NCBI GenBank assembly: GCA_031278145.1
Contig: JAITLA010000261.1
Span: 1-6,011 of the forward strand
Length of the DNA: 6,011 bases
DNA from: Eubacteriales Family XIII. Incertae Sedis bacterium
GTDB taxonomy: Bacteria; Bacillota_A; Clostridia; Peptostreptococcales; Anaerovoracaceae
Direction: 5' to 3'
Shown: positions 2,702-5,859 of the stretch, piece by piece
How the letters are laid out: every line of letters begins with the position of its first letter
How positions within the stretch are numbered: position 1 is the first letter of the stretch
Notes under the pieces: model-generated
What the model saw: the letters and a program-made list of their open reading frames with translations, nothing else
What the model was told of the DNA's origin: nothing
The model's database searches: none
Program-made: the position numbers and the translations under genes

Positions 2702-2730
2702 ATTATGGCACGTTTGCGCGGCGTTTGCAA
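2702..2730 (-). promoter_or_regulatory. sigma70-type promoter for hypF
   Basis: On the minus strand TTGCAA (2730-2725) is followed by exactly 17 bases and then CATAAT (2707-2702), matching 4/6 and 5/6 of TTGACA/TATAAT at ideal spacing. Transcription would begin near 2695, giving a leader of about 20 bases to the TTG at 2674. This placement excludes the ATG at 2743 as the start for transcripts from this promoter. The 7-bp repeats starting at 2711 and 2722 lie in its spacer and over its -35 box. Confidence 0.6.
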
Positions 2731-2743
2731 TGCGCTTCCGCAT
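2711..2743. repeat. 11-bp-phased direct repeats over the hypF promoter (candidate operator)
   Basis: CGTTTGC occurs at 2711-2717 and again at 2722-2728, exactly 11 bases apart with GCGG between. A third, 5/7 match (CGCTTCC) sits at 2733-2739, in the same phase. A 7-bp conserved block plus 4-bp spacer is the geometry of binding sites of PhoB/OmpR-type regulators, and such a regulator is encoded from 2878 on. The array covers the spacer and -35 box of the hypF promoter and ends about 26 bases before the -35 box of the regulator promoter. A bound protein could therefore repress hypF or control the regulator itself. The repeats are seen; the binding role is inferred. Confidence 0.4.
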
Positions 2744-2877: not shown

Positions 2878-3564
2878 GTGAGCGGCATCTTGATCTGTGA
2901 CGACCAACCGATTATCCATGACTCGCTCGGCATCTATCTGACGGATGCCGGGATGTCGTTTTTCAGCGCTTACGACGGAAACGAGGCTCTGGAATTGTTT
3001 GCGCGGAAGAACCCGGATCTGGTGCTTCTCGATGTCATGATGCCGGGGCGGGACGGCATCGAGGTCTGCCGCGAGATACGAAAATCCAGCCGCACGCCCA
3101 TCATCATCCTCAGCGCCAAGGGGGAGGAGCTGGACCGCATATTGGGGCTTGAGCTGGGCGCGGATGACTATATCGTGAAACCGTTCAGCCTGCGGGAGGT
3201 CGTGGTGAGAATCAAGACGATCCTCCGTCGCGTTCGCATTCCCGACGAGGACAAGGATACGGCGCTGCACTTCCCCGGAATGGACATCGACGGCGGGCGT
3301 TACGAGGTGCGCATTGCCGACGCGGCGATCCCGTTCACGCCCAAGGAGATCGCGGTGCTGCATTTTCTGGCTTCAAATCCCGGCTTTGTGTTTGGGCGCG
3401 AGAGGATTCTGAACGAGGTCTGGGGCTACGACTATTACGGGGATACCCGCGTGGTCGATACCATTGTGAAGCGGATACGGCAGAAGCTGTGCGCCTGTTC
3501 CCATACCATCAAGAGCGTTTACGGCGTCGGCTACAAATTCGAGAGGGAAAACGAAAATGGGTAG
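2878..3564 (+). CDS. PhoB/OmpR-family response regulator
   Basis: A cytoplasmic two-domain DNA-binding regulator of 228 residues, the normal family length. The receiver domain (about 3-118) has the acidic pair D8/D9 (ICDDQ), the phosphoacceptor D52 (LLDVMMPG), S79 (ILSAK) and K101 (VKPFSLRE). The C-terminal winged helix (about 128-222) has FTPKEIAVLHFL, the recognition-helix region DTRVVDTIVKRIRQKL and the terminal hairpin SVYGVGYKF. The GTG start at 2878 is chosen because AGGAAAGG (2863-2870) lies 7 bases upstream and the receiver begins directly after it; longer frames upstream add only non-conserved leader. Its 3' end overlaps the kinase gene by 8 bases (ATGGGTAG), so the two are co-transcribed and probably translationally coupled. 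The input signal cannot be read from the sequence. The 11-bp repeats at 4995-5027 and 2711-2743 are candidate targets. Confidence 0.95.
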   Translation: MSGILICDDQPIIHDSLGIYLTDAGMSFFSAYDGNEALELFARKNPDLVLLDVMMPGRDGIEVCREIRKSSRTPIIILSAKGEELDRILGLELGADDYIVKPFSLREVVVRIKTILRRVRIPDEDKDTALHFPGMDIDGGRYEVRIADAAIPFTPKEIAVLHFLASNPGFVFGRERILNEVWGYDYYGDTRVVDTIVKRIRQKLCACSHTIKSVYGVGYKFERENENG

Positions 3565-4978
3565 CAGCATCTTTCTGCGCCGCATCGTCGTGCTGGTGGC
3601 CCTGGCCCTCCTGATCGCCGGCATGCTTTCAATCGGTATTTTCAACATCGTGATGCGGCATACCTACAAGGAAATCCAGACCGACGAGCTGCTGCCCATC
3701 GCGCACACGATTGCGGGGCTGGCGGCGCAGAGCGAGCAGACCAAGGTGCCCCTGGATATGGACAGGCTCCAAAGCCACAATTTTATGGATGCGCGGCTGC
3801 ATATGTTCGACGCGAGCGGGGAACCCGTCCTGCCCGACGCGGATCCCCGCGCCGAACCGCCGCGAAGTCCTCCGCCGGACGCGGAGTCGGAGCATATGCG
3901 GAATTTGCTGGCGCGGGTGCTTGCGGGACAAGAGATACTCCTGCCGGAAACGCGGATAGACGACGTCGGTTTTTTGGCCGTGGGCGTCCCGATCCTCGCC
4001 GACAACGGACGCGTGATAGGCGCCGTCATGTTCACCAAGCCCATTTCCGATCTGCAAAAATCCTTTAAGCGCTTCAGCCTCGCCGTGCTTCTGAGCATGG
4101 GTTTGGCGTTTTGCGTCATGCTTTTGCCCGTGTATTTTATCGCGCGAAGGCTGACGCTCCCCCTGACGCAGATGCGCGACATCTCACGGCGCATGGCCGG
4201 CGGGGATTTTTCACGGTACGCCGACGAGAGCCCGAAGGGGGAGATCGGAGAGCTGGCGGCGGCGATGAACCACTTTGCCGCAGAGTCGCAAAAGCTGGAA
4301 AAAACCCGGCAGGACTACGTCGCAAATGTTTCGCATGAACTCAAGACGCCGATTGCCGCGATAAGGGTCATGAGCGAAACCCTGTCCGACGGCATGATCG
4401 GGGATGAAGGCAAAAAGCGGCAATACTACGCCCTGATCTTGAATGAAACGCTCGGTCTGTCGCGCCTGATCGACGATCTCCTCGAACTGTCGCGCTTCCG
4501 GACGGGGGAAATGTCGTTTGCCAAGGAGCGCTTCAATCTGCGCGAGCTGCTGGAGAATTGCAGGGAATCCTTCGCGCTTGTCGCGCAGAACGCGGGGATT
4601 TCGCTGCATCCGGTCGCGATCTCGGACGCCGTGGGCGCGGCCTATTCCGTTCCCGACCGCATCAGGCAGGTGCTGCGCATCCTTCTGGACAACGCGGTGA
4701 AGCACGCCCCCGTCGGCGGGCGCATCGAAATCAGGGCCGCAGCGCGTGGCCGGCGCATCGAGGTTTCCGTCTGCGACGACGGGGACGGGATCCCACGGGA
4801 GGATTTGCCGCATATCTTCGAGCGGTTTTACAAGGTGGACAAATCCCACGCGTCGGCCGGCCACGGTCTTGGGCTTTCGATTGCGCGCGAGGTCCTGACG
4901 CTGCTGGGCGAGAGCATCACCGCGGAGAGCGAGCCGGGCGTCCGCACCGTTTTCACCTTCACGGTGGAACGCGCGTAA
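3557..4978 (+). CDS. Membrane sensor histidine kinase (HisKA/HATPase_c), partner of the adjacent regulator
   Basis: A 473-residue kinase expected to autophosphorylate and pass the phosphate to D52 of the regulator encoded just before it. TM1 is at about 10-33. An extracytoplasmic sensor of about 140 residues (34-172) contains a Pro/Asp-rich stretch at 92-110 and a Cache-like pattern (LHMFDASGEPVL, then FLAVGVPILADNGRVIGAVM). TM2 is at about 174-195. A HAMP linker follows to about 248. The H box VSHELKTP carries H260. The N box is ILLDNAVKHAP (N379), the G1 box DDGDGIP, the F box FERFYKVDKS and the G2 box GHGLGLSIA. All catalytic boxes are intact and the architecture is that of PhoR/ResE-type kinases. 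The start ATG lies within the 3' end of the regulator gene, with GAGAGG 10 bases upstream. No terminator with a T-run follows. The ligand is unknown. Confidence 0.95.
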   Translation: MGSSIFLRRIVVLVALALLIAGMLSIGIFNIVMRHTYKEIQTDELLPIAHTIAGLAAQSEQTKVPLDMDRLQSHNFMDARLHMFDASGEPVLPDADPRAEPPRSPPPDAESEHMRNLLARVLAGQEILLPETRIDDVGFLAVGVPILADNGRVIGAVMFTKPISDLQKSFKRFSLAVLLSMGLAFCVMLLPVYFIARRLTLPLTQMRDISRRMAGGDFSRYADESPKGEIGELAAAMNHFAAESQKLEKTRQDYVANVSHELKTPIAAIRVMSETLSDGMIGDEGKKRQYYALILNETLGLSRLIDDLLELSRFRTGEMSFAKERFNLRELLENCRESFALVAQNAGISLHPVAISDAVGAAYSVPDRIRQVLRILLDNAVKHAPVGGRIEIRAAARGRRIEVSVCDDGDGIPREDLPHIFERFYKVDKSHASAGHGLGLSIAREVLTLLGESITAESEPGVRTVFTFTVERA

Positions 4979-4994
4979 GCCTTCCTTTATTGTT

Positions 4995-5027
4995 GTATTT
5001 GTGCCGTATTTCCGCCATATTTGTCCC
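4995..5027 (+). promoter_or_regulatory. Three contiguous 11-bp direct repeats: candidate response-regulator operator
   Basis: GTATTTGTGCC (4995-5005), GTATTTCCGCC (5006-5016) and ATATTTGTCCC (5017-5027) follow one another without gaps. Copies 1-2 and 1-3 each differ at two positions. The array ends one base before a perfect TATAAT. Tandem 11-bp repeats placed where a -35 box should be are the hallmark of operators for PhoB/OmpR-family activators, and such a regulator and its kinase are encoded immediately upstream. The core TTTGYGC is shared with the phased repeats at 2711-2717. The repeats are seen directly; regulator binding is inferred. Confidence 0.55.
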
Positions 5028-5028
5028 T

Positions 5029-5034
5029 TATAAT
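5029..5034 (+). promoter_or_regulatory. Consensus -10 box (TATAAT) for the 208-residue protein gene
   Basis: A perfect TATAAT, but the hexamer at 17-base spacing (5006-5011, GTATTT) matches TTGACA at only one position, so the promoter probably needs an activator. The 11-bp repeats occupy the -35 region. Transcription would start near 5041. An alternative pair, TTGTAT (4993-4998) with CATATT (5016-5021) at 17 bases, is possible but weaker at -10. Confidence 0.55.
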
Positions 5035-5042
5035 AATAGCAT

Positions 5043-5060
5043 CCGGGGCACGCGCCCCGG
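5043..5060 (+). other. GC stem-loop at the extreme 5' end of the predicted transcript
   Basis: CCGGGGC (5043-5049) pairs exactly with GCCCCGG (5054-5060) around a 4-base loop (ACGC). It begins within a few bases of the predicted transcript start near 5041. It is followed by CAAACGG, not a T-run, so it is not a terminator for the kinase gene. A stable hairpin at the very 5' end would fit an mRNA-stabilising leader for a highly expressed gene (inference). Confidence 0.45.
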
Positions 5061-5103
5061 CAAACGGCAACGGCAGAGGATAAGAGAAAGGAAGGGATGA
5101 TTT

Positions 5104-5730
5104 ATGGTATCGGGTATCACAGGCTCGGGCGCGAGTTCGATTATTTACGAGCTTCTCCAAGAGAAGAAAATCGCTGTTTCCGAGGACGGCAAGACCGAAC
5201 AATCGGAAGAAACCACGTGGAAGTACGACACTGTTTCCGTCAGCGACGCGGCGCGCTCCTATTCGCCGCCCGCGCCGCCTCCGGATTTTTCCGACATGGA
5301 CGACGAGGAACTGACCGCTTGGCTGCGCGAGGCGGAATCCAAATACGGCGTCACGCTTAGCGAGGACGGATCGAAATCCGCGGAGGACCTCAGCGCCGAG
5401 GAGCTACAGTCCATCCGCGAGGCTCTGTCCGCAGGGCCTCGCGGCGGAGCGGGCGGACCGCAAGGGCCTCCCCCGGCAGGTGGAGCGGGCGGGCCGCAGG
5501 GCGCTCCCCCGGCGGGCGGACCGCAAGGACCTCCCCCGGCGGGCGGAACGGGCGGCGCTCTCGCGGCGGAATCCGAAAGCGACGAGGAAGAGAGCTTGGC
5601 GGATTACATCGCCGCGCTACGCGAGCAGCTCCGGCAGGAATACGCGGAAGGAGAGAGCCGCAAAGCATCCGCGTCCTACGCGGTGGACCCGACGGTGCAG
5701 GCCGCCATCGCGGCCTACGCGTCCGACTGA
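5104..5730 (+). CDS. Unrecognised acidic protein with a Gly/Pro/Gln-rich repeat linker
   Basis: No family is recognised. The 208-residue product has no Cys or His, no signal peptide and no membrane segment, and is rich in Asp/Glu. Three parts can be seen. Residues 1-110 start MVSGITGSGASS and include a Pro-rich break (YSPPAPPPDF, 53-62) and an acidic, probably helical stretch (DMDDEELTAWL, then EDLSAEELQSIREAL). Residues 114-151 are a low-complexity linker of 12-residue units. Residues 152-208 form a likely amphipathic helical tail (SLADYIAALREQLRQEY) ending AAIAAYASD. The segments around SEDG at 26-29 and 86-89 look weakly alike. The ATG at 5104 is chosen because AGGAAGGG (5089-5096) lies 7 bases upstream; the ATG at 5097 abuts that site and opens another frame. 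The gene has its own promoter with 11-bp repeats, suggesting control by the adjacent two-component system. A non-classically exported or scaffold-like role is only a guess. Confidence 0.8.
   Translation: MVSGITGSGASSIIYELLQEKKIAVSEDGKTEQSEETTWKYDTVSVSDAARSYSPPAPPPDFSDMDDEELTAWLREAESKYGVTLSEDGSKSAEDLSAEELQSIREALSAGPRGGAGGPQGPPPAGGAGGPQGAPPAGGPQGPPPAGGTGGALAAESESDEEESLADYIAALREQLRQEYAEGESRKASASYAVDPTVQAAIAAYASD
5443..5556 (+). repeat. In-frame 36-bp tandem repeats coding a Gly/Pro/Gln linker
   Basis: Units encode GGAGGPQGPPPA (5443-5478), GGAGGPQGAPPA (5479-5514), a shortened GGPQGPPPA (5515-5541, 9 bases fewer) and a remnant GGTGG (5542-5556). Units 1 and 2 differ at only a few bases, mostly third positions, indicating recent duplication or selection on the peptide. 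All changes keep the frame. The peptide is not a strict Gly-X-Y collagen repeat. It is probably a flexible spacer between the two halves of the protein. Confidence 0.85.
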
Positions 5731-5732
5731 CC

Positions 5733-5757
5733 GGACCGCGCCGGGCCAGCACGGTCC
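5733..5757 (+). other. Short hairpin just after the stop codon (GGACCG/CGGTCC)
   Basis: GGACCG (5733-5738) pairs exactly with CGGTCC (5752-5757) across a 13-base loop. It starts three bases after the TGA of the 208-residue protein gene and is followed by CTGAAGG, without a T-run. It may act with the palindrome just downstream to protect the mRNA 3' end or slow transcription. Confidence 0.35.
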
Positions 5758-5764
5758 TGAAGGA

Positions 5765-5812
5765 AGCGCCCCCGGCGGGATGAGGGCATGCCCTCATCCC
5801 GCCGGGGGCGCT
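5765..5812. terminator. Perfect 48-bp palindrome, candidate bidirectional stem-loop terminator
   Basis: Left arm 5765-5788 and right arm 5789-5812 are exact reverse complements, 24 bp each with no spacer, centred on GGGCATGCCC. The RNA from either strand would form a very stable GC-rich stem of about 22 bp. It sits between the stop of the 208-residue protein gene and mutY, as a terminator would, but no T-run follows (CGGCCATCCC downstream; TTCCTTCAGG on the other side). It may instead be a U-less terminator, a 3'-end protective hairpin or a copy of a dispersed palindromic repeat. Confidence 0.6.
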
Positions 5813-5859
5813 CGGCCATCCCTCTTGTGTGGCGCAGAGCAAAGGAGTGCAGCCGCAAA

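Follow-up and report, generated by a model that had tools for sequence, protein, structure and literature searches.

A predicted OmpR/PhoB-type direct-repeat promoter beside a two-component gene pair in a Family XIII bacterium

Introduction

In the window, by which we mean the whole stretch of 6,011 nucleotides that was analysed, three direct repeats of 11 bp lie between a two-component gene pair and a gene that starts at position 5104. The question raised by this locus is which protein would dock on these repeats, and with what effect on the following gene. Most likely, the array is the operator of the neighbouring OmpR/PhoB-family regulator and forms a promoter without a -35 box for the 5104 gene.

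Results

Genes of the locus

The genes in the window are ordered hypF (minus strand), response regulator (RR), sensor kinase (HK), spacer, orphan open reading frame and the start of mutY. The pair and the output gene are:

2878..3564, + strand: OmpR/PhoB-family RR with GTG start (Response_reg and Trans_reg_C), the proposed DNA-binding protein for the array
3557..4978, + strand: HAMP-HisKA-HATPase HK, overlapping the RR gene (Pfam; family kinases 46-49% identical)
5104..5730, + strand: output gene for a 208-aa orphan protein with Pro/Gly-rich repeats (ORF, family searches)

The preliminary description of this DNA had placed a regulator at 2878-3564, in a two-component operon, and ORF and Pfam analysis recovered it there, with the kinase at 3557-4978. 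The two RR domains scored above the cut-off (PF00072, E 4.2e-30; PF00486, E 4.4e-23), which identifies a member of the OmpR/PhoB family. The term 'PhoB-type' used before thus holds for the family, but not for PhoB itself, as the RR reached 196.8 bits against the PhoB equivalog TIGR02154 (NCBIfam), below the cut-off of 296.2. The NCBIfam cut-offs for WalR/WalK were likewise not reached (YycF, 217.1 of 340 bits; WalK, 238.6 of 725 bits).

For the orphan protein, no Pfam or NCBIfam family was found above cut-off. Four clear homologues (P0002-P0005) were identified on contigs of 2.1-3.7 kb, together with the weaker P0127, P0128, P0006 and P0129. A pattern search of genome contigs returned 156 matches and no relatives among them, and a search of 391 genomes of the class gave weak matches (8e-5 to 8e-4) in 2/391 with query A2 and 2/391 with query A4. 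Within the orphan protein (5104-5730), the unit PDFSxMSDDEL...LSAGPGG occurs once, as in P0005, and it occurs twice in P0003 and P0004. No htrA was found among the five window proteins scanned by Pfam.

A direct-repeat array next to a -10 element

The spacer between HK and the orphan gene (4979-5103) contains the following elements:

4995..5005, + strand: repeat unit -3, GTATTTGTGCC (repeat search, period count)
5006..5016, + strand: repeat unit -2, GTATTTCCGCC, at the -35 position (repeat search, period count, anchored comparison with relatives)
5017..5027, + strand: repeat unit -1, ATATTTGTCCC, between -35 and -10 (repeat search, period count, anchored comparison)
5029..5034, + strand: -10 element TATAAT, after the array and one base (similar geometry in relatives L101, L001, L100 and L099)
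5041, + strand: predicted transcription start, 7 bases after TATAAT

The tandem repeat was confirmed as real. The stretch 4995-5027 consists of three abutting 11-mers with 25 of 33 pairwise identities at period 11, the unit pairs being 64-82% alike, and the best counts at other periods (7-15 compared) were 18/36 at period 12 and 18/42 at period 14. A count of 25/33 did not occur in 5000 dinucleotide shuffles of the spacer of 125 bases (best shuffle 22), nor in 1000 shuffles over periods 9-13 or 200 shuffles of the entire window. A repeat search returned the identical repeat family. Of the earlier reading of the repeats, the three contiguous 11-mers stand, but the consensus RTATTTGTSCC had to be replaced by the strict form RTATTTSYSCC, with CCG in the middle unit against GTG in the first.

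As previously described, a perfect TATAAT follows one base after the array (T5028, then 5029-5034); no other TATAAT was found on the + strand anywhere in the window. Its upstream region, said before to be non-consensus, indeed contains no -35 hexamer: TATTTC, GTATTT and CGTATT, at distances of 16, 17 and 18 bases from TATAAT, each share a single position out of six with TTGACA. The array/TATAAT site was absent from the listing of a sigma-70 promoter scan of the window. By a common spacing rule, transcription starts about 7 bases downstream of TATAAT. Computed from a start inferred in this way, the units would lie at about -46 to -36, -35 to -25 and -24 to -14. The 11-bp direct repeats of an OmpR/PhoB-type operator promoter are present, and by sequence reading the array stands in for the -35 box in the window, from which L099 may differ.

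Relatives with the same pair

Relatives were identified via HK. Among the matches listed in the genome contigs, L001 was found in a Clostridiales Family XIII draft genome (G001), which at E 1e-85 was the only one among 297 genomes of the order; the best HypF match among 398 genomes of a phylum sample was also located in G001. At E 1e-75, 5 of 296 genomes of one family encoded the kinase, and the same five had been returned by an earlier search of 197 genomes; G1055 and G1097 belong to one genus. Viral contigs, queried with HK, A2 and exact matches to the 33-mer, yielded no relative.

ORFs of the fetched loci showed RR-HK pairs in L001, L099, L100 and L101. The L102 contig (G1066), on which the kinase begins at base 106, has no listed RR. 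The window RR is 58-61% identical to the RRs of the four loci, and all have in common the VVDTxxKRIRxKL region, which we take to be the recognition helix. A Trypsin_2 (HtrA-type) protease adjoins the pair in L099, L100 and L101, with PDZ domains also present in the L100 and L101 proteins. It is divergent from the RR in L099 and L100, and in L101 it follows the kinase directly, in the place that the orphan gene occupies in the window. L001 carries a divergent 181-aa ORF with no Pfam match at E 0.01, the product of which was read as secreted-looking from its N terminus. The output gene beside the pair thus varies, being an HtrA-type protease in three relatives and an uncharacterised gene in L001 and the window.

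Arrays beside the pair

An array of similar period and core was observed beside the pair in four of the five family genomes with the kinase, G1066 (L102) being the one without. The link between regulator and array proposed in the preliminary description is well supported by this, and conservation beside the regulator, as in an OmpR/PhoB-type operator promoter, holds for these four.

Twelve regulatory regions, two of which overlap in L100, were scored with a PWM of the three window units, with 1000 shuffles each. The best period-11 triples were found in the HK/htrA spacer of L101 (19.2, 0/1000 shuffles), in L001 (14.2, 2/1000) and upstream of htrA in L099 (16.8, 3/1000). L100 was the weakest array locus by the window motif (htrA-upstream, 7.7, 33/1000), and the RR-upstream regions of L101 and L100 scored 5.0 (35/1000) and 5.5 (64/1000). 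No signal was obtained downstream of HK in L102 (419/1000), L100 (652/1000) and L099 (973/1000), in the HK/aroQ region of L001 (920/1000) or upstream of the RR in L099 (928/1000). With a fixed background, the triples of L101 (19.3) and L099 (16.6) exceeded the best score in 812 kb of 79 other loci (15.8), and those of L001 and L100 did not. For unit pairs, L101 (17.8) was above the background of 17.2, and L001 (15.5) and L099 (14.7) were below it.

In all five loci with an array, a unit is followed by one base and a -10 hexamer, namely TATAAT (window), TAAGCT (L101), TAAACT (L001), TAGACT (L100) and TACACT (L099), where the hexamers were picked by eye and the promoters were anchored on the unit nearest to -10. 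Repeat units overlie the -35 position in the window, L101 and L001, and do so less clearly in L100. In L099 the upstream units are shifted by one base, and TTGTCA, 16 bases before TACACT, is a possible -35 element.

Downstream of the G1066 kinase (L102:2250-2288) a different 11-bp tandem repeat is present, GCGTTGTTTTG-like and with 29/33 identities. It fails to match the motif and was rejected as an equivalent array.

Leave-one-out and de novo searches

Leave-one-out PWMs were scored over the whole locus on both strands. With one upstream unit, the site ranked first in 5/5 loci, and the number of background positions reaching it was 16 for the window, 1 for L101, 0 for L001, 0 for L100 and 5 for L099 (of 1,619,164). 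With two upstream units it was first in 4/5 loci and second in L099; no background position of 1,617,426 reached the site of the window, L101, L001 or L100, and 8 reached that of L099. Here the window site scored 22.5 and the runner-up in the window 5.4. A third upstream unit left the ranks unchanged, with background counts of 0, 0, 0, 0 and 2 (L099) of 1,615,688.

A de novo motif search with no assumed period, seeded with the window and L101 regions, identified array sites in all five regions. At width 29 the RR-proximal array of L001 and L100 was picked, and at width 40 the other array. The score was reached by 0/40 shuffled sets and 0/40 real intergenic sets, both nulls being built from every second seed only. 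Run on the four relatives alone, and without a null, the search gave similar sites. A PWM built from the RR-upstream block of L001, L100 and L101 ranked the window spacer first, at 14.3 versus 10.2 for the next separate place; this block is conserved in an alignment without the window, and it was noticed through the window's motif. Two further PWMs also ranked the spacer first, with sites that had been located in a run including the window.

Proposed mechanism and alternatives

Since similar arrays precede different genes beside the same pair in the relatives, the array is a likely docking site of the RR. In the proposed mechanism, the sensor kinase would phosphorylate the RR, and the phosphorylated RR would bind the 11-bp units head-to-tail. 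Units -3 and -2 would then cover the -35 position, so that bound RR could recruit a sigma-70-type (sigma A) polymerase to TATAAT and turn the 5104 gene on. That the effect would be activation rather than repression is inferred solely from the missing -35 box. A PhoB dimer sits over the region that matches the two distal units, and coverage of this region favours activation. To the whole explanation, in which the phosphorylated regulator on the array recruits polymerase and switches on the 5104 gene, we assign a probability of roughly three quarters.

Because unit -1 reaches the spacer between -35 and -10, the same regulator might instead repress, with unit -1 blocking polymerase and phosphorylated RR shutting off a basal TATAAT promoter. 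The position of this unit, about -24 to -14 from the predicted start, would suit such a role; in Streptomyces, according to PMC12802291, a CutR site lying 17 bp ahead of the start is linked with repression and a site at 62 bp with activation. However, basal activity is expected to be low in the window, which has no -35 hexamer, and the course of the units through the -35 position in the window, L101, L001 and, less clearly, L100 also speaks against repression, with L099 as a locus that may have a -35; we regard it as unlikely. Still lower is the chance that the array serves another DNA-binding protein, for instance an OmpR-family regulator encoded elsewhere, since the best intergenic arrays in G001 were found at this RR-HK locus and the arrays follow the RR in four genomes while the neighbouring genes change. 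Perfectly abutting units of such similarity (25/33 overall) could also have arisen through tandem duplication by replication slippage and play no part in regulation. This reading is already disfavoured and hardly credible, as arrays that share period and core but differ in sequence stand beside the RR-HK pair in four other genomes at a similar distance to -10.

Regulon and autoregulation

That sensor, regulator and output gene form one local module, and that the motif could reveal a regulon in a genome scan, had both been put forward in the preliminary description. Such a scan was run in the relative G001, over 874 kb of about 900 kb, with a PWM from the loci other than G001, in which the register of the L100 units was aided by alignment with L001. 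Outside ORFs of at least 60 aa, the six best triples all fell, as overlapping frames, in two arrays that separate the 181-aa ORF from the RR. The best intergenic triple at the RR-HK locus scored 20.7 and the best elsewhere 14.3; when coding positions were included, one coding site scored higher (22.4) and others lay between 18 and 20. The top intergenic arrays being at the pair's own locus, the picture in G001 fits a local module, and the predicted regulon looks mainly local there.

The two-unit pattern ATTTNCGCCNNATTTNCGCC, allowing up to 2 mismatches, was searched in 20 genomes and showed no clear enrichment where the pair is present, with 22 matches in about 10.0 Mb (5 kinase genomes) versus 37 in about 25.7 Mb (15 family genomes without the kinase), and 14 and 18 for the reversed controls. 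It is a poor test, because it has no match on the contigs of the known arrays. Near-identical copies of ATAATTATGCGACATTTGNTTCATGCGTTTGTC, with weak motif scores, were observed on two G001 contigs (L148:119-162 and L215:6856-6899, minus strand); they are candidates for a repeat element or for further targets.

In L001, L100 and L101, the distances from the RR-upstream block to the next TATAAT toward the RR (49, 49 and 48 bases, with a second TATAAT at 69 in L101) suggest possible autoregulation. For the window, one stretch was considered:

2710..2742, + strand: weak second period-11 stretch between hypF and RR, 20/33 identities; candidate autoregulatory site, not supported

With the window PWM, the hypF/RR triple scored 5.2 (83/1000 shuffles) and the best triple lay elsewhere in the region. 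One of the PWMs that rank the window spacer first also matches at 2703 on the + strand, but only in fifth place. The RR promoter of the window thus offers no good site, and autoregulation in the window is not supported. On the minus strand, a promoter-like TTGCAA-17-CATAAT is present in the same intergenic region (2702-2730), overlapping the weak period-11 stretch.

Comparison with known systems

PhoB binds head-to-tail to 11-nt repeat units and contacts sigma-70, as stated in the part of PMC4415409 that deals with these sites. Like the pho-box promoters of E. coli, the window combines an RR of this family with 11-nt direct repeat units and lacks a -35 hexamer. It differs in its core, which is ATTTNCGCC-like and not CTGTCAT, in its third unit, which reaches to one base from -10, and in its RR, which stays below the PhoB cut-off (see above). 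ArcA sites of E. coli also contain multiple repeats, spaced 11 bp from centre to centre, the majority with three to five; the portions of PMC3798270 on this point further describe ArcA as a global regulator whose site location and orientation are not conserved. In contrast, the window-type array lies at a seemingly fixed distance to -10 and is seemingly local.

The two-component pairs CssRS and CutRS are tied to HtrA-type proteases, and the CutR motif is TAWATAAA (PMC12802291). A Trypsin_2 protease likewise stands beside the pair in L099, L100 and L101, with arrays in front of it; the window has an 11-bp array rather than TAWATAAA, and the five window proteins scanned include no HtrA. The orphan protein would be tied to a sensor whose relatives adjoin HtrA-type proteases, which suggests a role in envelope stress.

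The window promoter is thus a predicted promoter of the OmpR/PhoB operator type, with a sequence of its own and a differing output gene, and does not represent a new kind of system. For an apparently clostridial family of two-component systems, on which no published work was found in a limited literature search that falls short of proof of absence, it provides a predicted operator, promoter geometry and first local target, all from sequence. The locus could also serve as a small test case of a regulator that keeps its operator while the target gene changes.

Predicted RNA structures

Four elements were found at the RNA level:

4980..4988, + strand: anti-Shine-Dalgarno (anti-SD) CCTTCCTTT, just after the HK stop codon and only in read-through RNA; 9-nt perfect complement of 5087-5095
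5087..5095, + strand: Shine-Dalgarno (SD) region AAAGGAAGG of the output gene (complement search, folding)
5043..5060, + strand: 7-bp GC hairpin at the predicted mRNA 5' end (folding)
5765..5812, + strand: perfect palindrome of 48 bp, located between orphan gene and mutY, a possible transcript end or stabiliser (folding)

Nine complementary bases were reached in 10/3000 shuffles of the upstream part and in 0/821 other 62-nt windows. The mean predicted unpaired probability of the SD was 0.81-0.82 for RNA starting at 5041 and 0.07-0.17 for RNAs starting at 4600-4979. It is predicted that read-through RNA hides the ribosome site of the 5104 gene and that RNA from the array promoter exposes it. 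Read-through kinase RNA would thus carry an anti-SD that masks the SD, so that protein would be made mainly from the regulated promoter. A ribosome terminating HK translation would probably sit over CCTTCCTTT, and the effect would accordingly depend on HK translation. A broader reading, in which the locus is a cassette with kept pair and array promoter and a swapped output (HtrA-type protease, 181-aa protein or 208-aa orphan), the window output being also insulated at the RNA level, is tentative and on balance doubtful.

Taken as a whole, the 5' region showed no unusual folding compared with shuffles (z 0.38 for the 90-nt RNA, and -0.20), and an Rfam search gave no match at the gathering score. 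The RNA around the palindrome (5720-5850), which has no obvious T-run, was predicted to be far more stable than shuffles, with a z of -5.02.
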